In this document: positions 406 through 55,384 of the stretch, in pieces
Layout: every line of letters starts with the position of its first letter
Numbering within the stretch: position 1 is the stretch's first letter
Assembly: GCA_021647505.1 (NCBI GenBank)
Contig: JAKIUN010000018.1
Coordinates: forward strand, 1-56,979
Origin: Gammaproteobacteria bacterium
GTDB lineage: Bacteria > Pseudomonadota > Gammaproteobacteria > SZUA-152
Reading direction: 5' to 3'
DNA length: 56,979 nucleotides
Program-made: the position numbers and the translations under genes
The notes under the pieces: generated by a model
Told to the model about the DNA's origin: nothing
The model's input: the letters and a program-made list of their open reading frames with translations, nothing else
Databases searched by the model: none

Positions 406-787
406 TGATATGCCACAAATATCAGTCATTCCTGTGGTAGTTGGGGGTCTATAGCCTCGTTTTTAATGCCGTTATTCTCATTGCTATCTCTCATCGATAT
501 TTCCAAATTGATCCAGATCAAGGCAGAAAGATCTGGATAATATAACTTCCTCACATCGGCTTAGAAAGCTGCGCAAGCAGTAGATGCCCTGTTTGTAAGG
601 CGCTATCCAGGTGGATTGTTGGCAATGAAAGTGTTAGGTGCTGCGGATACGCCATTGCCATTAGAGAATTGAAGTAGTGGAGTCGACAAAGCAAGTCTTT
701 GCGACCTTCACGTGTCATCTGTAAATGAATAATACACTCGCCGAAACCACTCGTAGTGTGTGCATATCGGCAGAAAAGGAGGGCGCT
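406..787. other. Intergenic stretch: promoter region and long leader of the cytochrome cluster
   Basis: Apart from the FNR-type box and -10 element at 508-546, I see no gene here. If transcription starts near 556, the first cistron (start at 788) has a leader of about 230 nt. That leader contains a 15-codon mini-ORF (about 626-672) without known similarity. No riboswitch or attenuator fold was recognised by eye. Confidence 0.6.
508..546 (+). promoter_or_regulatory. FNR/ANR-type box with downstream -10 element
   Basis: Positions 508-521 read TTGATCCAGATCAA, a perfect match to the FNR consensus TTGAT-N4-ATCAA. Candidate -10 hexamers gataat (536-541) and tataac (541-546) lie 22-32 bp downstream of the box centre. 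This is close to the class II arrangement, where FNR sits at about -41.5 and replaces the -35 element. It is the only obvious promoter ahead of the cytochrome genes at 788-7301. The inference is activation of the whole cluster under low oxygen. FNR and CRP sites differ by a few bases, but this one is clearly the FNR type. Confidence 0.75.
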
Positions 788-1435
788 ATGAAGCGAATAC
801 CGGTTACCGTTTCCATCTTGGCTGCAGCCTTGATGGCCACGTCAAGCTATGCAGTAGGCAATGAGATATTTCAGGAAAACTGCGCCGACTGTCACTACAC
901 AACTGGACCGGCAAAAGAGAAAACTATTGCTGACCAGCTGGCAAAGAAGGGGCCAGAACTGTGGTATGCCGGTAGTAAGTTTCAAAAGGAATGGCTGTTA
1001 TCCTGGCTGCAGGATCCGATACCTATCCGTCCCTTGAAGTACAACTCGATAACAGAGAAAAACCCTGCTGATCACCCTAAGCTTTCGGCGGGAGATTCCG
1101 CCTCCGTGACAGATTATCTGATGGGGTTGACATCAGCAGATGTCAAGGCGGGTGTGATCACGCCCAAGAAGAGTGCAAAGGGCCGATTAATTTTCTCGAA
1201 GAAAATGCCCTGTAGCGGCTGTCATCAATATCCAGCCAAGAAGGGTAAGGTAAAGGGTGGCTTGAGCGGCCCTACGTTAGTGGGGGCAGGTACACGACTG
1301 AATCCTGATTGGATCTATGCCTACCTGACAAATACCAAAGTGTTCAAGCCAGTCCGTGCCATGCCGGATTTCTCAGGCTCACTTAATCCAAAGGCTATCG
1401 AAAAGGTGGCGGCATATGTGGCTATCTTTAAATAA
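788..1435 (+). CDS. Periplasmic diheme cytochrome c
   Basis: A 215-residue exported protein with two heme-c sites, CADCH (residues 32-36) and CSGCH (142-146). Residues 1-22 form a signal peptide ending SSYA. I start at ATG 788 because a strong ribosome site (AAAGGAGGG, 775-783) precedes it and the signal peptide begins there; an in-frame ATG at 725 would add a non-signal-like tail and has no such site. The two halves each look like a small class I cytochrome domain. It is the first gene of the cluster behind the FNR-type box, with the next cytochrome 24 bp downstream. Likely role: electron shuttle in the periplasm to the CydA-like oxidase encoded downstream. Its exact partner is inference. 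Confidence 0.85.
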   Translation: MKRIPVTVSILAAALMATSSYAVGNEIFQENCADCHYTTGPAKEKTIADQLAKKGPELWYAGSKFQKEWLLSWLQDPIPIRPLKYNSITEKNPADHPKLSAGDSASVTDYLMGLTSADVKAGVITPKKSAKGRLIFSKKMPCSGCHQYPAKKGKVKGGLSGPTLVGAGTRLNPDWIYAYLTNTKVFKPVRAMPDFSGSLNPKAIEKVAAYVAIFK

Positions 1436-1459
1436 TGTAATTAACGGAGGGACTGGCTC

Positions 1460-1828
1460 ATGAGAATGTTAGCAATCATGGCTGCCATACTGCTTGGTTT
1501 GACTCTGCTTGTTGGTGGCACGGTTCAGGCCGCAGACGACAAACAACTTTATGATTTTTATTGTGCTCAGTGTCATGGCTTGACTGGAAAAGGTGATGGC
1601 CCGAATGTGACAAAGGATTTCAAGACTGATCCAAGGGATTTTACCAGTGTTGTCGATATGGAGAAATTGTCTGATGCTGATATCAGGAATGTGATCATGG
1701 ATGGCGGAGTTGCAGTCAGTAAGTCAGAATTGATGCCACCCTGGAGCACGACTATCTCTGAGGCGGATGTTGAAAAATTAACCGCCTATATTAGGAAACT
1801 CTGCAAGTGCACGGCCAAGGGAAAATAA
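1460..1828 (+). CDS. Small monoheme class I cytochrome c
   Basis: A 122-residue exported cytochrome c. Residues 1-24 are a signal peptide ending VQA; CAQCH at 35-39 binds heme, and a Met in SELMPPW near residue 93 is the likely sixth ligand. The fold matches the Cytochrome_CBB3 / class I family in length and spacing (CxxCHG..GDG, then MPPW, then a C-terminal helix). Two extra cysteines near the C terminus (CKC, residues 115-117) are unusual and could form a disulfide or bind a metal. A good ribosome site (CGGAGGG) lies 8 bp upstream of the ATG. Probably a soluble electron donor within the oxidase cluster. Confidence 0.85.
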   Translation: MRMLAIMAAILLGLTLLVGGTVQAADDKQLYDFYCAQCHGLTGKGDGPNVTKDFKTDPRDFTSVVDMEKLSDADIRNVIMDGGVAVSKSELMPPWSTTISEADVEKLTAYIRKLCKCTAKGK

Positions 1829-1845
1829 GCAGGAGCAGTTTCACT

Positions 1846-1950
1846 ATGAAATATTTGAATAAAAAAGTTATTTCTGATGGCGTGATATTTTGTGGAATGC
1901 TGGTGAACCTTGTCTTTATTGTTGTAATTCTTTACCTCTACGTTATTTAG
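1846..1950 (+). CDS. 34-residue single-helix membrane protein
   Basis: A very short gene with ATG at 1846, preceded by GCAGGAGCAG. It encodes a basic N terminus (MKYLNKKVISDG) and then one long hydrophobic helix that fills the rest of the protein. No family recognised. It lies in the oxidase cluster, co-directional and 17 bp behind the monoheme cytochrome gene. The size and architecture are like the accessory subunits CydX or CcoQ of terminal oxidases, so a role in assembly or stability of the CydA-like protein is a reasonable inference. Translation is supported only by the ribosome site and the membrane-like composition. Confidence 0.55.
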   Translation: MKYLNKKVISDGVIFCGMLVNLVFIVVILYLYVI

Positions 1951-2046
1951 ATAATTATAACCAACTTCAAGTAAGGCTAAGCTGTCTTTGCGCGAGTGCT
2001 TGAGTTTTTTGCACAAAACAGGTTGCTGGAAAATGGGTGGAAAACT

Positions 2047-2160
2047 ATGGATTCTGACAGTCAGGAAAATCAAAAATACCCATGGGCAGGGCCAGCATTG
2101 TTCGTCTCGGTGTTGATCGCATTGCTTGTTTTCTTTACGTGGTTCTTAGGGGGGAAATAA
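2047..2160 (+). CDS. 37-residue single-helix membrane protein
   Basis: ATG at 2047 follows a purine-rich stretch (gggtgg, 2034-2039). The product has a polar N-terminal third (MDSDSQENQKYPWAGPA) and one transmembrane helix (about residues 17-33), and ends GGK. It resembles the short CcoQ/CcoS-like helices found in oxidase operons in shape only. The next mini-gene starts two bases after its stop, which points to a shared transcript and coupled translation. The 96-bp gap in front of it holds no other gene that I can support. Confidence 0.55.
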   Translation: MDSDSQENQKYPWAGPALFVSVLIALLVFFTWFLGGK

Positions 2161-2161
2161 C

Positions 2162-2278
2162 ATGAAGGAATATATTCTTCCATTCCTTGGCGCCTTCATC
2201 GTCTTTGGTATTATGTTTTATGGAGTGGATGTTGTCATGATGAATCTTCAAGGTTTGTCCTTGTCATTTCAGTCTTAA
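2162..2278 (+). CDS. 38-residue single-helix membrane protein
   Basis: Starts one base after the previous stop (TAA-c-ATG). MKEYILPFLGAFIVFGIMFY forms a transmembrane helix right at the N terminus, followed by a short amphipathic tail containing DVVMMN. No family recognised. It is followed after 35 bp by the CydA-like gene. Three consecutive one-helix genes in front of an oxidase core subunit are noteworthy. The position and the tight spacing make it likely that this product is a subunit of, or assembly factor for, that enzyme. Confidence 0.6.
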   Translation: MKEYILPFLGAFIVFGIMFYGVDVVMMNLQGLSLSFQS

Positions 2279-2313
2279 GGTAACGCATTCGGGTGCGTAA
2301 ATAGGAGTAGATT

Positions 2314-4143
2314 TTGCAAAAGCGGAATTCAAGAATAATTATGGGGGCGTTGTTTACTGCCGTCTTTGCGCTTTTTTTGTTGCCCAGCATTGTGCCCGGT
2401 CTTGATGCCTCCCTGGCATTTGCCGATGAAACGACAGTTAACCTGGATGTCGATGCAGTAACCTATGATCCCGCACCAAAATTAACAGAGGCTGATTACC
2501 CTAAAATTTCAGGGGTAAATAGCCGGGTGGTGGTTTGGATTGTGGCCCAGCTCCATCTCTGGTTCGGGGCCTTTGTTCTGGCGGTTCCCATCTTCGTGTT
2601 TATTATCGAAGCCATTGGTATGTCAACGCGGGATCAGCGTTATGACAACATGGCCTATGAGTTCATCAAGATTAGTATTACTGCTTTTTCACTAACTGCT
2701 ATCCTTGGTGGTTTGTTGGTTTTTTGCCTGGTCCTGTTTTATCCAGACCTGTTTAACTATTTGGCCACCATTTTTAAAGAAAGTATGTTCGCGTACGCGC
2801 TGTTGTTTTTTGTCGAAAGCGCGGTTTTGTACGTCTATTACTATGGCTGGCACTGGCTACAGGGTGGATTCAAGAAGTGGGTGCATTTAACCCTGGGCCT
2901 GCTGCTTAATGCATCCGGTGCGTTGCTCATGTTTCTGGCAAATGCCTGGACGACCTTCATGATGAGCCCGGCTGGTGTCGATGCTGCCGGCGTGTTCAGC
3001 GGCGACACATGGGCTGCCATTCATAACTTCCTGTGGAACCCCATCAATATCCATCGCATGATTGCCAATGTGGCATACGGCGGATCGATCGTTGGTGCCT
3101 ATGCCGCTTTTAAGTTCCTCAGTGCCAGGAATAAGGAACAGCGCGCACATTACGACTGGATGGGTTATAACGCCAATTTTATTGCCATCGCTGCTCTGCT
3201 ACCGCTGCCCTTCGCCGGTTACTATCTGACGGCTGAAATGTATGTCTACAGTCAGCAGATGGGCATTACCCTGATGGGCGGTGTATTTGCCTGGATTTTC
3301 ATTATTCAGGCAGTATTAATTGGCGCCTTGTTTTTATCGGCCAATTACTACCTGTGGTGCGGGATGGGCCGTAGTGAAGGTGCCCATCGCTATAATCCCT
3401 ACATGAAGTACATTGCCGTTGTCCTTGTCGTTTCTTTCCTGGTGTGGTTTACGCCGCATACCTTGGTACTCACCAATGCGGAATTGAAGAGCCTTGGCGG
3501 ACCTTATCACGCAATTCTGGGGCCGTTGGGAATCATGCCGGCGAAGAATACCGCAGTAAATCTTTTAATCTTGTTCACGTTCTTGAGTTTCATGTTTTAT
3601 CGGCGCGCCAATAAGATTGCTACGGTACCTTGGGTGGCGAAAGGCAATGCCGTTCAAGTCGCACTATTTACTGCCGGTATTATTAATATCTTTATTCTGG
3701 GTACTTATTACGGCTACTACACCAATACGGTGTACAAGATAGCGGCCTCTATTCCCCAGGTATTAACGACCCTGGTGATCATTGCCATCAGTGTGGCCAT
3801 CGATGCCTTTATGTATAAGGGCTCCAAGGAAGTCGCCCCCTTGCGCTGGGGCAGAGTCCCGCCACGATCACAGTATGCTTTGTTTCTTTTGGCGGTGTCG
3901 TTTACCTGGCTCATGGGCCTGATGGGGTATGTCCGCTCCGGTATTCGCCAGCATTGGCATGTCACCAATATTTTCCGTGATAACTCTCCGGATGCCTATA
4001 CGCCCGGCCTGGGTTATGCGGCTAATGTTATTTCGATTGCCACCATTATATTCATGGCGATGGTTATCTTTGTCTTTTGGCTGAGTACGGTGAGCAGCCA
4101 AAAGAGCCAGGCAACGGGCTATTGGAAGGAGCAGGGTACATGA
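2314..4143 (+). CDS. CydA-like (cytochrome bd-type) membrane oxidase core subunit
   Basis: A 609-residue, roughly 13-14-helix membrane protein. TTG is the start, placed by GGAG at 2304-2307. After an extra N-terminal signal/anchor helix, the CydA pattern is seen: AQLHLWFGAF with His81 where E. coli CydA has the heme ligand His19, FFVES with Glu168 at the Glu107 position, and FLANAW matching the VANGWM region. RSGIRQHW (541-548) replaces the GRQPW motif, with His547 in place of Pro. The His186-type b558 ligand is not at its usual place; His247 lies nearby in NPINIHR. No CydB is present and no clear quinol-binding Q-loop is seen. Classical CydA has about 520 residues and 9 helices. Bd-like proteins of this sort are known from Nitrospira with cytochrome c partners. 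Likely an oxygen-reducing core fed by cytochromes c. Confidence 0.75.
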   Translation: MQKRNSRIIMGALFTAVFALFLLPSIVPGLDASLAFADETTVNLDVDAVTYDPAPKLTEADYPKISGVNSRVVVWIVAQLHLWFGAFVLAVPIFVFIIEAIGMSTRDQRYDNMAYEFIKISITAFSLTAILGGLLVFCLVLFYPDLFNYLATIFKESMFAYALLFFVESAVLYVYYYGWHWLQGGFKKWVHLTLGLLLNASGALLMFLANAWTTFMMSPAGVDAAGVFSGDTWAAIHNFLWNPINIHRMIANVAYGGSIVGAYAAFKFLSARNKEQRAHYDWMGYNANFIAIAALLPLPFAGYYLTAEMYVYSQQMGITLMGGVFAWIFIIQAVLIGALFLSANYYLWCGMGRSEGAHRYNPYMKYIAVVLVVSFLVWFTPHTLVLTNAELKSLGGPYHAILGPLGIMPAKNTAVNLLILFTFLSFMFYRRANKIATVPWVAKGNAVQVALFTAGIINIFILGTYYGYYTNTVYKIAASIPQVLTTLVIIAISVAIDAFMYKGSKEVAPLRWGRVPPRSQYALFLLAVSFTWLMGLMGYVRSGIRQHWHVTNIFRDNSPDAYTPGLGYAANVISIATIIFMAMVIFVFWLSTVSSQKSQATGYWKEQGT

Positions 4144-4955
4144 AGGACTTTTTAAAAGTTGCCATCTTTAGCCTGTTGACGATTGGTGCGTTCACCGCCT
4201 ATTCCAACTTTGGTATTCCTCAGATCGTGCCAGCACCTCCTCCCGTTGAGGAGGTGCTGGATCTGGAGGCGATGACCATGGATCAGTTTATCGCCCTGGG
4301 TGACAGGCTTTATCGTGGCAAGGGGACATGCACTTTGTGTCATAACGAACTGCTCCGTGCCCCTTTGCTCGATGATTCGGTCGCCATGGCCTTAAAACAT
4401 ATGAGTGACCCCAATTACAAGGGCGAAGCGACGAACGTCGAAGAGTATCTGCACGAGTCGTTTGTAAATCCTTCGGCCTATGTTATGGCTGGTTTTGGCA
4501 AGGCGGGAAGCAATGATACGGAAAGCCCCATGCCGGATGTTTCCGCTGGAGGCATCGGCCTGTCAGAGGCCGAAATCACGGCCATTATTGCCTATCTTCA
4601 GGACAGCAGTGGTAATGAAGTGACCGTATCGATTCCTACGGATGTCCCTGAAGAGACGGGTGATGAAGAATCGGAAGGCGGAGGAGGGCGGGCGCCGTTT
4701 GACTCCGCCGAGGCCATTATTGCCGAGTTTACCTGTGGCGCCTGTCACAAGATTGCGGGTGAAGAAGGTGAAATGGGGCCTGATCTGACACAGGTTGGCG
4801 CATTACGTGACAAGGATCATTTGCGCCGCTCTATGCTGGATCCCAATGCTGAGATTACTGATGGTTTTATGGAGGGCATGATGCCTGCCTACGGTGACCA
4901 GCTGAATGCGAATGAGCTGGAGATGTTGGTGGACTACATGGCTGGGTTGAAATAA
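4140..4955 (+). CDS. Membrane-anchored diheme cytochrome c
   Basis: A 271-residue protein whose ATG overlaps the stop of the CydA-like gene (ATGA, 4140-4143), so the two are translationally coupled; GGAAGGAGCAGG just upstream supports this start. Residues 5-22 are a hydrophobic anchor. A CTLCH site (64-68) and a CGACH site (199-203) sit in two cytochrome domains joined by an acidic, glycine-rich linker (about 165-185). Each domain ends in a Met-containing stretch (SPMPD, MMPAYG) suitable as sixth ligand. By position this is the prime candidate for the cytochrome-c subunit that donates electrons directly to the CydA-like core, much as CcoP or CoxB-c extensions do in other oxidases. Confidence 0.85.
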   Translation: MKDFLKVAIFSLLTIGAFTAYSNFGIPQIVPAPPPVEEVLDLEAMTMDQFIALGDRLYRGKGTCTLCHNELLRAPLLDDSVAMALKHMSDPNYKGEATNVEEYLHESFVNPSAYVMAGFGKAGSNDTESPMPDVSAGGIGLSEAEITAIIAYLQDSSGNEVTVSIPTDVPEETGDEESEGGGGRAPFDSAEAIIAEFTCGACHKIAGEEGEMGPDLTQVGALRDKDHLRRSMLDPNAEITDGFMEGMMPAYGDQLNANELEMLVDYMAGLK

Positions 4956-4957
4956 TC

Positions 4958-5737
4958 ATGATAAAGAAAAGACGTATACCCCGTTTGTTACAGCTCGTCC
5001 TTATCGTGGCGGGAGTTTATTTCGGTTTTATTTTGACATTCGATGTCATTCTGGGCCAGTTGATTCCGAAAAGCCTGCTCACGATGTATATGTTCTTCGT
5101 GATTACCGGTGTGTTGATGGTATTCACTTTCACTGAGGAGAGTACTCGGGAGCTTATTGACCCAATCAAGGCATTGGTCGAAGACCCCTCTAAAAAAGTG
5201 CTGCGAAATATTGTATTTGTCATTGTGCCGTTACTGGCCGGGATCTACACGTATTCCAGTTTGTTACCCAGTTTTGAGGCTCCGGTGGAGCTGCGTACGA
5301 TCCACCCGGCACCGCCATCCAAGATGAAGGCCTATGGTAAGCGCTTTGACCTGGCAACATTGGAGAATCCCTATCGAAAATACGAAAAGGAAGACCCCGA
5401 TAAGTTCCGTGAACTTGTCAGAGAGGGGGGGGATGTCTACATCAAGGGCTGTCAATATTGTCATGGTGACAAGCTAGATGGCAAGGGGCCTTACGCTGCC
5501 GGGCTGAACCCCACTCCCCTCAATTTCCAGGATGTAGGAACCATTGCCCAATTACAGGAATCCTACATATTTTGGCGTATCGCCACAGGTGGCCCGGGCC
5601 TTCCTGCGGAAGCTGCACCCTGGATCTCATCCATGCCCATCTGGGAAGACTTTTTGAGCGAGGATGAAACCTGGAAAGTGATTTTGTTCTTGTATGACTA
5701 CACGGGACATCAGCCAAGGTCATGGGAACATGAATAG
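4958..5737 (+). CDS. Three-helix membrane protein with C-terminal monoheme cytochrome c domain
   Basis: A 259-residue protein starting two bases after the previous stop. Residues 10-30, 36-58 and 84-104 are hydrophobic helices, and a charged cytoplasmic-looking loop (about 59-83) lies between the second and third. The C-terminal half is a single cytochrome c domain with CQYCHG at 165-169 and a Met in SSMPIW as likely axial ligand. The helix count and order resemble a quinol- or oxidase-associated anchor subunit, but I do not recognise a named family. It overlaps the next gene by 8 bp, which again indicates one operon and perhaps one complex with the CydA-like protein. Confidence 0.8.
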   Translation: MIKKRRIPRLLQLVLIVAGVYFGFILTFDVILGQLIPKSLLTMYMFFVITGVLMVFTFTEESTRELIDPIKALVEDPSKKVLRNIVFVIVPLLAGIYTYSSLLPSFEAPVELRTIHPAPPSKMKAYGKRFDLATLENPYRKYEKEDPDKFRELVREGGDVYIKGCQYCHGDKLDGKGPYAAGLNPTPLNFQDVGTIAQLQESYIFWRIATGGPGLPAEAAPWISSMPIWEDFLSEDETWKVILFLYDYTGHQPRSWEHE

Positions 5738-7301
5738 TCGACGTCCGGGAAACCCTATGAGACAGATCAATTTATTCAAGCTAGTGCTGTTCGTTGCTTT
5801 ACTTTTGGTCGTTGGCATAACGTTTGCGAAACCGGGCGATCTCGATAGAGGCAAGGAAATATATGATAAACGCTGCACATGGTGCCATGGTGATGAAGGT
5901 GACGGCCTGGGCGCCGCCGAGGGATACGTGAACCCGCCGCCGCGTGACTTTACATCTGGCAATTACAAGATCAAGTCGAGTGGATTTGATGAAATGGTGC
6001 CGAATGATGATGATGTCTATCGGATGATTCGGGATGGTATGCCAGGAACATCCATGCCGGGGTGGAGTTCATTGCTCAGTGAGCAGGATATGTGGGATCT
6101 GGTAGCATACGTCAAGATGTTTGCCGAGTTTGAAGAGGCGCCTGAGCAACAGGTCGACTATGGAACGCCGGTCGCGAGTTCAGCCGAGAGTATCGCGAAG
6201 GGAAAAGAATTGTTTGAGGACGGAGATCGTTGCGTCGAATGTCATGGCAAAACAGGTAAGGGCGATGCGATCAAGGGGCTAAAGGGTGATGCCAGCGAAC
6301 GAACCTGGCCCCGCAATCTGACCAAACCATGGACCTACGTGGGCAGTCATGATCCCAAGGACATTTTTGCACGAATTTCTATCGGTATTCCCGGCACCGA
6401 AATGCCGTCCTTTGCTGATCCGAAAAGCAAAAAGATGCTTAGCATCGAGGAACGCTGGCACGTGGCCAATTATGTGGTATCCCTGGCTAAGACTCAGCGG
6501 GTGGTCGATGCTGAAAATACCGTTATCCAGGCGGATATATTGGAAGGTGATTTGCCTGATTCGCCAGACGACGAGCGTTGGGAGCAAATGATGCCGACCA
6601 CGTTTTTTCTCGTTCCGCAGATTATCGGCAAGGAACGCCTTTTCAGGCCATCCAATGACACGATCACCGTCCGTGCCGTCTACAACGACAAGGCCATCGC
6701 CATGCTGATGGAATGGGATGATAGAACCAAGAGTATCCCCGGTGACGAACGGGCGGAAAAGATTGCCGATAAGCCGATTCAGGAAGACGGCGTCGCTGTG
6801 CAGTTACCGATTGAAATACCGGATAAAATGGTCAAGCCCTATTTCGGTATGGGGGATGCTACCCATCCGGTGAATATCTGGCACTGGAAGAGTGGCACCA
6901 AGGACATGGCCGAGACGGTTGCCATGGCCAATAGCCGGGGGTTTGAGGATATCGAAGCACGAGATGCGACCGAGAGTGGACTTCAGGCAAAGGGAAGCTA
7001 TCATGATGGCACTTGGCGCGTTGTGATGGTTCGTCCATTGACGACAGCTGATCCGGAAAATGACTTGCAATTCATCGAGGGCCGTTTCATTCCAATTGCC
7101 TTTGCCGCCTGGGATGGCAGCAACAACAGCGAAAAGGGTTCACGGCACACCATGACGACCTGGTACTGGTTACAGTTAAAGCCGGCGACAAGTGCAATGC
7201 CCATCATCATGGCCCTGCTGATTGTCGGCCTGTTTGCGGGGATATTATTCTGGTGGGCTCGAAGCGCTGCTGCCAACAAGGCCGTGGGTGGGGATAGCTA
7301 A
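5730..7301 (+). CDS. Diheme cytochrome c fused to an ethylbenzene-dehydrogenase-type heme-b domain
   Basis: A 523-residue protein in three parts: an N-terminal signal/anchor (about residues 14-33), two cytochrome c domains with CTWCH (49-53) and CVECH (168-172), and a C-terminal half (about 290-495) resembling the cytochrome c-552/DMSO-reductase-like heme-binding domain (EB_dh, Pfam PF09459). The latter contains the conserved AVYND..A..MEWDD strand pattern and a Trp/His-rich HPVNIWHWKSG segment. A transmembrane helix (about 497-517) ends it. ATG 5730 overlaps the preceding stop; ATG 5757 is an alternative that would still keep the signal peptide. EB_dh domains normally bind one heme b in gamma subunits of molybdoenzymes, but no molybdoenzyme gene is nearby, so here it probably serves electron transfer within the oxidase system. 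Confidence 0.82.
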   Translation: MNSRRPGNPMRQINLFKLVLFVALLLVVGITFAKPGDLDRGKEIYDKRCTWCHGDEGDGLGAAEGYVNPPPRDFTSGNYKIKSSGFDEMVPNDDDVYRMIRDGMPGTSMPGWSSLLSEQDMWDLVAYVKMFAEFEEAPEQQVDYGTPVASSAESIAKGKELFEDGDRCVECHGKTGKGDAIKGLKGDASERTWPRNLTKPWTYVGSHDPKDIFARISIGIPGTEMPSFADPKSKKMLSIEERWHVANYVVSLAKTQRVVDAENTVIQADILEGDLPDSPDDERWEQMMPTTFFLVPQIIGKERLFRPSNDTITVRAVYNDKAIAMLMEWDDRTKSIPGDERAEKIADKPIQEDGVAVQLPIEIPDKMVKPYFGMGDATHPVNIWHWKSGTKDMAETVAMANSRGFEDIEARDATESGLQAKGSYHDGTWRVVMVRPLTTADPENDLQFIEGRFIPIAFAAWDGSNNSEKGSRHTMTTWYWLQLKPATSAMPIIMALLIVGLFAGILFWWARSAAANKAVGGDS

Positions 7302-7338
7302 TTAACCCGGTAATAATCTATACTATTGCCGGGTTAAT
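7301..7338 (+). terminator. Hairpin after the cytochrome cluster
   Basis: A 15-bp near-perfect inverted repeat (7301-7315 against 7324-7338, one mismatch, 8-nt loop) begins at the last base of the preceding stop codon. No T-run follows, so it is a weak or factor-assisted terminator, or an mRNA-stabilising structure that separates the cytochrome cluster from the small downstream gene. Confidence 0.5.
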
Positions 7339-7352
7339 AGATAAAGGACTGC

Positions 7353-7568
7353 ATGATGAGCCAGCATGAGAAGCGGGGTGTGAAAACCAAATTATTGGGC
7401 GTGGTGATGGTTTCCCTGGGGGTATTGGATAGTCTGTTGACGTTACGCGGGGGATTGCCCAGTGAGGAGTATATCCTGCTCATCGTCTTGGGTATCGCCG
7501 TATTTATCATCGGCGCCATTCGGGCTGGCCGGCAGTCCGATGATCCCGCTGACGAACAGGTCAGATGA
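7353..7568 (+). CDS. Small two-helix membrane protein, unknown function
   Basis: A 71-residue protein with a short basic N terminus, two hydrophobic helices (about residues 14-30 and 40-58) and a charged tail rich in Asp and Arg. ATAAAGGA upstream is a fair ribosome site for either of two adjacent ATG codons (7353 and 7356). I do not recognise a family. It follows the cytochrome cluster in the same direction, but a 15-bp hairpin lies between them, so membership in the operon is uncertain. The composition is typical of a real small inner-membrane protein. Confidence 0.6.
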   Translation: MMSQHEKRGVKTKLLGVVMVSLGVLDSLLTLRGGLPSEEYILLIVLGIAVFIIGAIRAGRQSDDPADEQVR

Positions 7569-49116: not shown

Positions 49117-49938
49117 TTAGCAGCAACCGCCATCGGGCTTGACCGCCTTGATGGTGGCGGAGAGCACGTAGTCTTCTACCCCACGTCCCGGTGCCCAGTC
49201 CTTGATGAAGTCGCGGGATTCATCCTTGGGGGCGATGCGTACGTTGCAGAAGCCCGCCTCACCGAGCATGCGTTCGAGGTCATCGATGAGTTCCGCGCCG
49301 GCCATGCAGCCCGCATGCAGCTGCGGGTCGTTCTTCATGGCTTCCGGCATCTCGGCACTGGCCACCACGTCGGATATGGCCAGTCGGCCACCGGGCTTGA
49401 GGATGCGCAAGGCATCGCGGAACACCTGGGTCTTGTTGGGTGAGAGATTGATGACGCAGTTAGAAATGATGACATCGACGCTGTTGTCGGCCACCGGCAG
49501 ATGCTCGATCTCGCCGAGGCGGAACTCCACCTGCGTGTACTGACCCTTGTCGGCATTGGCGCGCGCCTTGCTGAGCATGGTGGGGGTCATGTCGATGCCG
49601 ATGACGTGGCCGGATTTGCCCACTTCCTGTGCGGCGAGAAAGGCGTCAAAGCCGCCGCCGCTGCCCAGATCCACCACCGTCTCGCCGGCCTTGAGGCCGG
49701 CGATGGCACGTGGGTTGCCGCAGCCCAGGCCCATGTCGGCACCCTCCGGCACCTGTTGCAGGTCATCTTCCGAATAGCCCAGGCGGGTGGAGATAAGGGT
49801 ATTGATGGCGCCGTCGTCAGATACGCCGCAGCAGCTGGATTCGACGCCGCAGCCATCACCCTGGTTGCTGGCCTCGGCTACCTGTGCGTAGCTGTCGCGC
49901 ACGTTCTGGCGGATGTCGTCGTGGGTTTTCTGATCCAT
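49117..49938 (-). CDS. arsM: Arsenite S-adenosylmethionine methyltransferase
   Basis: A 273-residue enzyme that methylates As(III) to mono-, di- and trimethyl products, making arsenic volatile. The SAM motif is VVDLGSGGGFDAF (88-100). Three conserved cysteines of ArsM are in place: Cys73 (LGCGNPRAIAGL), Cys161 (SNCVINLSP) and Cys211 (AGCMAGA), with the same spacing as in characterised algal ArsM. Additional cysteines (30, 36, 37 and a terminal GGCC tail) may help bind arsenic. It follows arsR by 27 bp on the same strand and is presumably repressed by it until arsenite is present. No pump (arsB/acr3) or reductase (arsC) is adjacent. Confidence 0.93.
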   Translation of the reverse strand: MDQKTHDDIRQNVRDSYAQVAEASNQGDGCGVESSCCGVSDDGAINTLISTRLGYSEDDLQQVPEGADMGLGCGNPRAIAGLKAGETVVDLGSGGGFDAFLAAQEVGKSGHVIGIDMTPTMLSKARANADKGQYTQVEFRLGEIEHLPVADNSVDVIISNCVINLSPNKTQVFRDALRILKPGGRLAISDVVASAEMPEAMKNDPQLHAGCMAGAELIDDLERMLGEAGFCNVRIAPKDESRDFIKDWAPGRGVEDYVLSATIKAVKPDGGCC

Positions 49939-54235: not shown

Positions 54236-55384
54236 ATGGCCCAGAGAGTGATGGTTAAAATACTGGTTGCGGCTTGCGCCCTGTCGGCGCCGGCAGCACT
54301 GCTGGCGGCGATTCCGCTCACAGACACCGTTGGTGTGATCGGCGATGCACGCACTGGCTTTTATAGTCTGCACCGTGATGACCGCGACGGCAGCGACTCG
54401 GTCAAGAACGAGTGGCGTCTGCGTCTGCGTGTCGGTTTGCAGGCGGAGATCAGCGATGCACTCAGCGCCCGGGCGCGTTTTGCCGGTCGCTATACCACCC
54501 ATGAGAGCAGCGGCGGTCCTGAGTTTGATTTCTATCAAGGCTTCAAGTCTGGTAAGGATGGCCTGAAAATGGGCCAGTCCACCCTGGATGAGCTTTGGCT
54601 GAATTATGCCGCCGAGCGCTGGAGCCTGCGTGCCGGGCGTATGCAGACCAAGTTTGAGCTGACCGGTGTGGCCAAGAAATCGCTGGATCGCAACGACAGT
54701 CCCAATACCGACATCGCCTGGACCGATGGTCTGTATTTTAAGTACAAAGGCAGCAATGGTTGGAACGGCCACGCCATTGTGCAATACAACTATGAAGAAG
54801 GCGCGACGCAGGTGCGTCGTGGGTCGCTGGACTTCAGCGATGACGACAGCCGCATCAGCTATTTCGCCGCGCTGGAAAAGCGGGACAAAAAGGCCACTAT
54901 CGTGCAGCAGGGGGTGGATGTTACCTGGTTGCCCGCCGCCCTGCCTGTCAGTGGTGGAAATCCGGATGATTACGTGGCCTTCGTCGGCCGTATGGCCGCA
55001 CAGTGGCCCATGGGGGCGGGCGGGATGAAATTCCTGCTGGGTGGAGAGCTGGGCTTTGCGCCGACGACACCGGCCAATAGTGCGGCCAAACTGGCCGGCA
55101 GCGGTGATACCGGCGGCATGGCGGGACAGGTGACCTTCAATTTCATTGATATTGTGCCGAAACACAGCGTTGGCGTGGTGCTGGCGCGGGCGGATGCCGG
55201 TTGGTTATTGTCGCCGGACTTCAAGAGTAACCAGTACCTGGCCGAGACCCGTTACCGCTGGAACCTCGCCAAGAAACAGCGCCTCGAAGTCCGCGTGCGT
55301 TACCGTACCGATATCGAACAGGAGATTGGCTTGCAAAAACGCAAAGACAAGGATCTGTATGCGCGTTATACCGTGAAATTCTGA
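54236..55384 (+). CDS. Outer-membrane beta-barrel protein, probably iron-regulated
   Basis: A 382-residue protein with a signal peptide of about 24 residues (ALLAA-IPL) and a strand-rich mature part ending YTVKF. An N-terminal block (EWRLRLRVGLQAEISDALSARARFAGRY) and WSLRAGRMQTKFELTGVAKK resemble putative porins of the Porin_4/DUF1302-like type. It has no TonB box or plug domain, so it is not a classical siderophore receptor. A Fur-like box lies 37 bp upstream and AGGAAAT before the ATG. The neighbouring barrel gene upstream has the same design. A strong terminator follows. Confidence 0.75.
   Translation: MAQRVMVKILVAACALSAPAALLAAIPLTDTVGVIGDARTGFYSLHRDDRDGSDSVKNEWRLRLRVGLQAEISDALSARARFAGRYTTHESSGGPEFDFYQGFKSGKDGLKMGQSTLDELWLNYAAERWSLRAGRMQTKFELTGVAKKSLDRNDSPNTDIAWTDGLYFKYKGSNGWNGHAIVQYNYEEGATQVRRGSLDFSDDDSRISYFAALEKRDKKATIVQQGVDVTWLPAALPVSGGNPDDYVAFVGRMAAQWPMGAGGMKFLLGGELGFAPTTPANSAAKLAGSGDTGGMAGQVTFNFIDIVPKHSVGVVLARADAGWLLSPDFKSNQYLAETRYRWNLAKKQRLEVRVRYRTDIEQEIGLQKRKDKDLYARYTVKF

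Follow-up and report, generated by a model that had tools for sequence, protein, structure and literature searches.

A CydB-less, CydA-like operon with five c-type cytochromes in a gammaproteobacterium: a probable bd-like oxygen reductase fed by cytochrome c

The window analysed here is a stretch of 56,979 nucleotides, contig JAKIUN010000018.1, from the genome of a gammaproteobacterium (GCA_021647505.1). On its plus strand lies a ten-gene operon of the order c1-c2-m1-m2-m3-cydA-c3-c4-c5-m4, in which a CydA-like membrane protein is accompanied by five c-type cytochromes (c1-c5) and four small membrane proteins (m1-m4); according to the open reading frame (ORF) calls, the first nine genes span 788-7301 (Table 1). 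Our results suggest that the operon probably encodes a bd-like membrane oxygen reductase of the OR-N kind that has no CydB and would be fed by periplasmic cytochrome c, with O2 as its presumed substrate. A sequence-only reading had described a CydA-like oxidase cluster with eight c-type haem sites, an EB_dh domain, three one-helix proteins and neither CydB nor a quinol-site signature, and this gene content was borne out throughout. The five cytochromes carry 2+1+2+1+2, that is eight, CxxCH motifs, all of which are at least 95% conserved among the 40-65 orthologues compared, and c5 contains an EB_dh domain (PF09459, 101 bits; the TIGR03477 match is under its cut-off).

The core protein matches Cyt_bd_oxida_I (PF01654) with 57 bits against a cut-off of 26.2, and its AlphaFold2 model, built on an alignment of 88 rows, has a predicted local distance difference test score (pLDDT) of 86.8. 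Its best fold match is CydA of E. coli cytochrome bd (Z 34, 350 residues, model range 55-589); the next matches after the bd oxidases are the NrfD-like subunits of alternative complex III (Z 21). Counting residues from ATG 2341, profile alignment places H72, H238 and E159 at H19, H186 and E107 of E. coli CydA; the three residues are invariant or near-invariant among relatives. Like E. coli cytochrome bd (CydABX), the system has the CydA fold, the equivalents of H19 and H186, and small one-helix subunits; unlike it, there is no CydB, c-type cytochromes are added, and IRQHW (535-539) is aligned to the canonical GRQPW. The quinol site appears to be absent from the core: profile alignments found neither a canonical quinol loop nor a GRQPW motif, and extra helices occupy the Q-loop region in the alignment and in the model. 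The same replacement of the Q-loop has been described for the bd-like protein of Nitrospina (PMC3578206).

A profile search with PF02322 found no CydB in this genome, which is 98% complete, nor in 21 of the 22 relatives' genomes searched, and the sole CydB among those 22 adjoins a separate, canonical CydA. Thirteen of the 22 have a single CydA homologue, a count in which the incompleteness of metagenome-assembled genomes (MAGs) has to be allowed for, and an obligate CydAA' pair is therefore unlikely to be general. The genome under study does have a second CydA copy, 58% identical, which lies on another contig (C83) together with a three-haem c3 and a fused c4-c5 protein of 802 amino acids. No OR-N2-like third CydA was detected in it, as the A4 profile matches the two known copies only. 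In alphaproteobacteria and some gammaproteobacteria, a tandem second cassette is found just upstream, and its CydA comes from another clade.

A scan covering one genome per species gave 543 relatives of the CydA-like protein, and the loci of 80 of them were fetched. The full gene order is kept in Gallionellales, other Nitrosomonadales, marine alphaproteobacteria, Arenicellales and Acidiferrobacterales, with cydA ∼73-85% identical; deltaproteobacterial MAGs and Nitrospinota retain the core cydA-c3-c4-c5. The full operon is thus common to beta-, gamma- and alphaproteobacteria and is not confined to one gammaproteobacterium; within the class, 15 of 369 sampled genomes carry a relative. Dozens of loci share the gene order, so the operon is not a chance arrangement, and in nearly all loci the core is accompanied by linked cytochrome c genes. 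In the phylogenetic tree, the window CydA falls in a Pseudomonadota clade (support 100/100) beside a Gallionella copy, within a larger clade that includes Nitrospinota CydA (100/99). According to record titles, some of the hosts are MAGs recovered from oxygen-minimum waters and from groundwater. Three outcomes had been named beforehand as refuting the oxidase reading, and what we found is no paired cydB, no quinol site by sequence and a linkage that is conserved in other genomes.

The OR-N family of bd-type oxygen reductases, with its CydAA' pairing, is said to go back to Murali et al. in 2021. Judged from its sequence, the window CydA is of the OR-N kind, and by elimination only it likely belongs to the OR-N1 subgroup. 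It resembles OR-N CydAA' in being CydA-like, in having no quinol site, in its likely cytochrome c donor and in its well-supported clade with Nitrospinota CydA, but differs in that the proposed second subunit, CydA', is missing from the 13 genomes mentioned above. Nitrospinota CydA proteins have been reported to be almost all OR-N1 or OR-N2, and OR-N bd-like enzymes are thought to use cytochrome c as donor (PMC10839748, PMC12342949). By gene set and order, for which Nitrospinota loci stood in for the Nitrospira and Kuenenia proteins, the core cydA-c3-c4-c5 is the cluster of a bd-like protein and an "alternative NxrC" (bd-like_3/alt_NxrC_2) previously reported for anammox bacteria and for Nitrospira and Nitrospina (PMC6606698, PMC3578206). 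Both have a bd-like protein of ∼14 helices without a Q-loop, two membrane cytochromes c and a one-helix EB_dh dihaem protein, and the order of cydA, dihaem c, monohaem c and EB_dh dihaem protein recurs in the Nitrospinota loci L140, L144, L070 and L077. The window CydA is ∼50% identical to Nitrospinia copies and 62-66% identical to other Nitrospinota copies. The earlier suggestion of an enzyme distinct to one gammaproteobacterium fails because there are more than 500 relatives and because this core was already known. In contrast to the published cluster, the operon here also has c1, c2, m1-m4 and a box of the FNR type, and comes without nitrite oxidoreductase (NXR). What is new is the small proteins, the general lack of CydB, the frequent single CydA, the lack of NXR, the haem-biosynthesis-like neighbours and the conserved box. 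A further likeness, drawn by description and to a different phylum, is to TO_1 of Candidatus Manganitrophus, in which a bd-like protein is combined with a periplasmic cytochrome b and electrons are reported to come from the periplasm (PMC9040806).

In the 80 fetched loci, m1, m2, m3 and m4 are found at their places in 46, 54, 66 and 44 loci, respectively. None of the four matched a Pfam or NCBIfam family, and we describe them here as four new, conserved and unnamed families of small membrane proteins. That m1 is a real gene is argued by its orientation: in 30 of 46 loci (e.g. L024:7139-7225) it sits between c2 and m2 on the strand opposite to the operon. In L041, L043, L046 and L067 (Acidiferrobacteraceae and one further MAG), m2 forms a single protein with a monohaem cytochrome c domain. 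The most widely kept of the mini-proteins, m3, also adjoins the paralogous cluster. In its 44 loci, m4 is conserved close to the same position, in 38 of them on the operon strand. It is part of the operon, which had been thought to end with c5 at 7301 and instead continues past a hairpin.

The palindrome upstream of c1 is indeed perfect, at a background frequency of 0.032 sites per kb for boxes of this type. TTGACGTAGATCAA or TTGACCTAGATCAA is found 183-321 bp upstream of c1 in L020, L023 and L074, with a TATATT -10 element ∼28 nt further, and a box of this type is conserved in several betaproteobacteria; L021 and L025 have a TTGACA promoter in its place. No FNR box was found before c1 in alphaproteobacteria, which is expected because c1 sits inside a tandem array there. 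An FNR-type iron-sulphur cysteine cluster occurs in none of the five Crp/Fnr-family proteins found in the genome. TTGAT-N4-ATCAA is also the motif of DNR/NnrR, and the lack of the cysteine cluster suggests that the reader may be DNR-like and sense nitric oxide (NO). Two of the five proteins have an ExxSR recognition helix, both without the iron-sulphur cysteines, and one of them adjoins a NorB-like haem-copper protein. A second perfect FNR box at 54525 lies within a porin-like ORF (54236-55384) and was taken as chance.

How the operon products could work together is suggested by the following scheme, in which complex formation, haem content, electron path, substrate and energy coupling are what we infer. 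Electron donors would reduce c1/c2, and the electrons could then travel along the c haems of c5, c3 and c4, which would dock at the periplasmic side, until they reach b-type haems in the CydA-fold core bound by H238 and H72. At this point O2 would be reduced, and the protons for this would come through the membrane (E159 is kept). The m1-m3 proteins could pack as one-helix subunits, like CydX of canonical bd. The box would control expression, probably in response to low O2 or NO. The oxidase reading is supported by the c4-c5 fusion of the C83 paralogue, by the fusions of m2 to cytochrome c and by the cytochrome c linkage in nearly all loci. Several observations weigh against it. Two canonical haem ligands appear to be lost: in a C-terminal alignment as short as 23 columns, the helix expected to hold M393 (transmembrane helix 7) has no Met, and Ser stands at the E445 position. 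The EB_dh haem ligands of c5 are incompletely conserved. The host also encodes three haem-copper-family proteins, cbb3-like and others, so that the complex is not needed as the sole oxidase. Finally, we found no biochemistry in the literature for any OR-N member.

The main rival, to which we give a clearly smaller chance, is that the complex is a cytochrome c/quinone oxidoreductase resembling complex III, possibly run backwards for reverse electron transport. Such a role has been put forward for the homologues in Nitrospina and Nitrospira (PMC3578206, PMC6606698), and it would fit the NrfD-like subunits of alternative complex III as next structural matches, the partial loss of canonical haem ligands in the core, and the fact that several hosts belong to lithotrophic lineages (Gallionella), for which reverse electron flow would be a necessity. 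However, a fold in common with NrfD-like subunits proves no function, and the known quinol-binding elements of CydA are all missing with no other quinone site evident. If the complex instead acted during denitrification, under a DNR-type regulator, to reduce or detoxify a different ligand, for instance NO, one would understand the fit of the box to the DNR/NnrR motif, the two ExxSR proteins, one of them beside the NorB-like protein, and the NosZ-like propeller/cupredoxin protein that follows some betaproteobacterial clusters. We consider this improbable, because linkage to denitrification genes is not general and many clusters stand beside idr/aio-like or haem genes.

A module for nitrite oxidation, with the EB_dh protein as membrane anchor of NXR, is suggested by the likeness of c5 to the alternative NxrC of Nitrospira (PMC6606698) and by a gene order as in Nitrospinota. 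The genome has no catalytic subunit of the type II dimethyl sulfoxide reductase family, NXR included, above the cut-off of TIGR03479, and the cluster is therefore not tied to nitrite oxidation, which makes such a role very unlikely. Still less can be said for an ordinary, quinol-fed cytochrome bd with its CydB encoded elsewhere: the PF01654 match would agree with it, but the lack of CydB here and in 21 of 22 relatives, together with the missing quinol motifs, refutes it as far as sequence goes.

In many of the bd-like loci there is also a radical SAM protein that contains a PCP_red domain and is close to NirJ2/AhbD, and a PCP_red universal stress protein, a HemY-like oxidase, and HEAT-repeat and beta-sandwich proteins travel with the clusters as well. 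Our guess is that these neighbours make or insert a haem. It is conceivable, although we would rather doubt it at present, that the oxygen reductase represents a third bd architecture, in which a lone CydA (without CydB or CydA') is joined by the one-helix m1-m3, a c-haem wire and a haem modified by the linked enzymes, used at low O2 by lithotrophs growing on Fe, S or other donors. So far, OR-N bd oxidases have been discussed mainly for nitrite oxidisers. A widespread Pseudomonadota version with a definable gene set, found outside nitrite oxidation, separates the enzyme from NXR and makes it testable whether, and with which subunits, a bd-type enzyme oxidises cytochrome c; four small protein families and a set of genes that may modify haem are also put forward for study.

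Table 1. Features of the operon and of the linked gene set. Positions refer to the window unless a locus or contig is named.
Feature	Position	Strand	Description
FNR/DNR-type box	508-521	+	TTGATCCAGATCAA, perfect palindrome; possible -10 TATAAC at 541-546, 26.5 nt from box centre
c1	788-1435	+	periplasmic dihaem cytochrome c, 215 aa (amino acids), signal peptide; orthologues in the same place 57-70% identical
c2	1460-1828	+	monohaem cytochrome c, 122 aa
m1	1846-1950	+	one-helix protein, 34 aa
m2	2047-2160	+	one-helix protein, 37 aa, YPWAGPALF motif
m3	2162-2278	+	one-helix protein, 38 aa
cydA (CydA-like core)	2314-4143	+	start TTG 2314 or ATG 2341; 600-609 aa, ∼14 helices; PF01654
c3	4140-4955	+	dihaem cytochrome c, membrane-anchored, 271 aa; ATGA overlap with cydA
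c4	4958-5737	+	membrane protein, three helices, one c haem, 259 aa
c5	5757-7301	+	two c haems, EB_dh domain and C-terminal helix, 514 aa
Inverted repeat, 15 nt	7301-7338		between c5 and m4; possible attenuator or terminator, without T run
m4	7353-7568	+	two-helix protein, 71 aa
Radical SAM/PCP_red/HemY-like gene set	L145/L146 (C83: 17085-26661), L037:6952-10500, L085-L097		

The two gene overlaps that had been taken to argue for one complex fared differently. The ATGA at 4140 stands, and the 8-bp overlap at 5730 probably does not, as c5 more likely starts at its second ATG, 5757, than at 5730: this ATG and a GGGAA/AGGAA-type ribosome site are kept in 6 of the 7 relatives examined, and the gap between c4 and c5 is then 19 bp. 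The start of c1 is 788, which is preceded by AGGAGG, and not 725. A second strong inverted repeat, a perfect one of 13 nt, lies at 4230-4260 within the beginning of c3. An Rfam search of positions 1-2400 gave nothing but sub-threshold chance matches, and a scan for consensus promoters and terminators gave no excess over shuffled sequence.

Outside the window, on contig C83 of the same genome (L145:4347-16165), the paralogous CydA cluster has directly behind it two dihaem CCP/MauG-like genes, a Rieske gene and an AioA/IdrA-like molybdenum gene, an arrangement that resembles the iodate-reductase operon idrP1P2BA (or aio). A similar order is found in L087, L088, L091 and L096, and the two CCP genes only in L097. 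In betaproteobacteria (L027:5819-7606, also L021, L023 and L025), a NosZ-like propeller and cupredoxin protein with the motif CSHFCGPLHLEM follows m4, accompanied by a monohaem cytochrome c. Elsewhere in the window, the minus-strand ORF 49117-49938 resembles, judged from its sequence, an arsenite methyltransferase.

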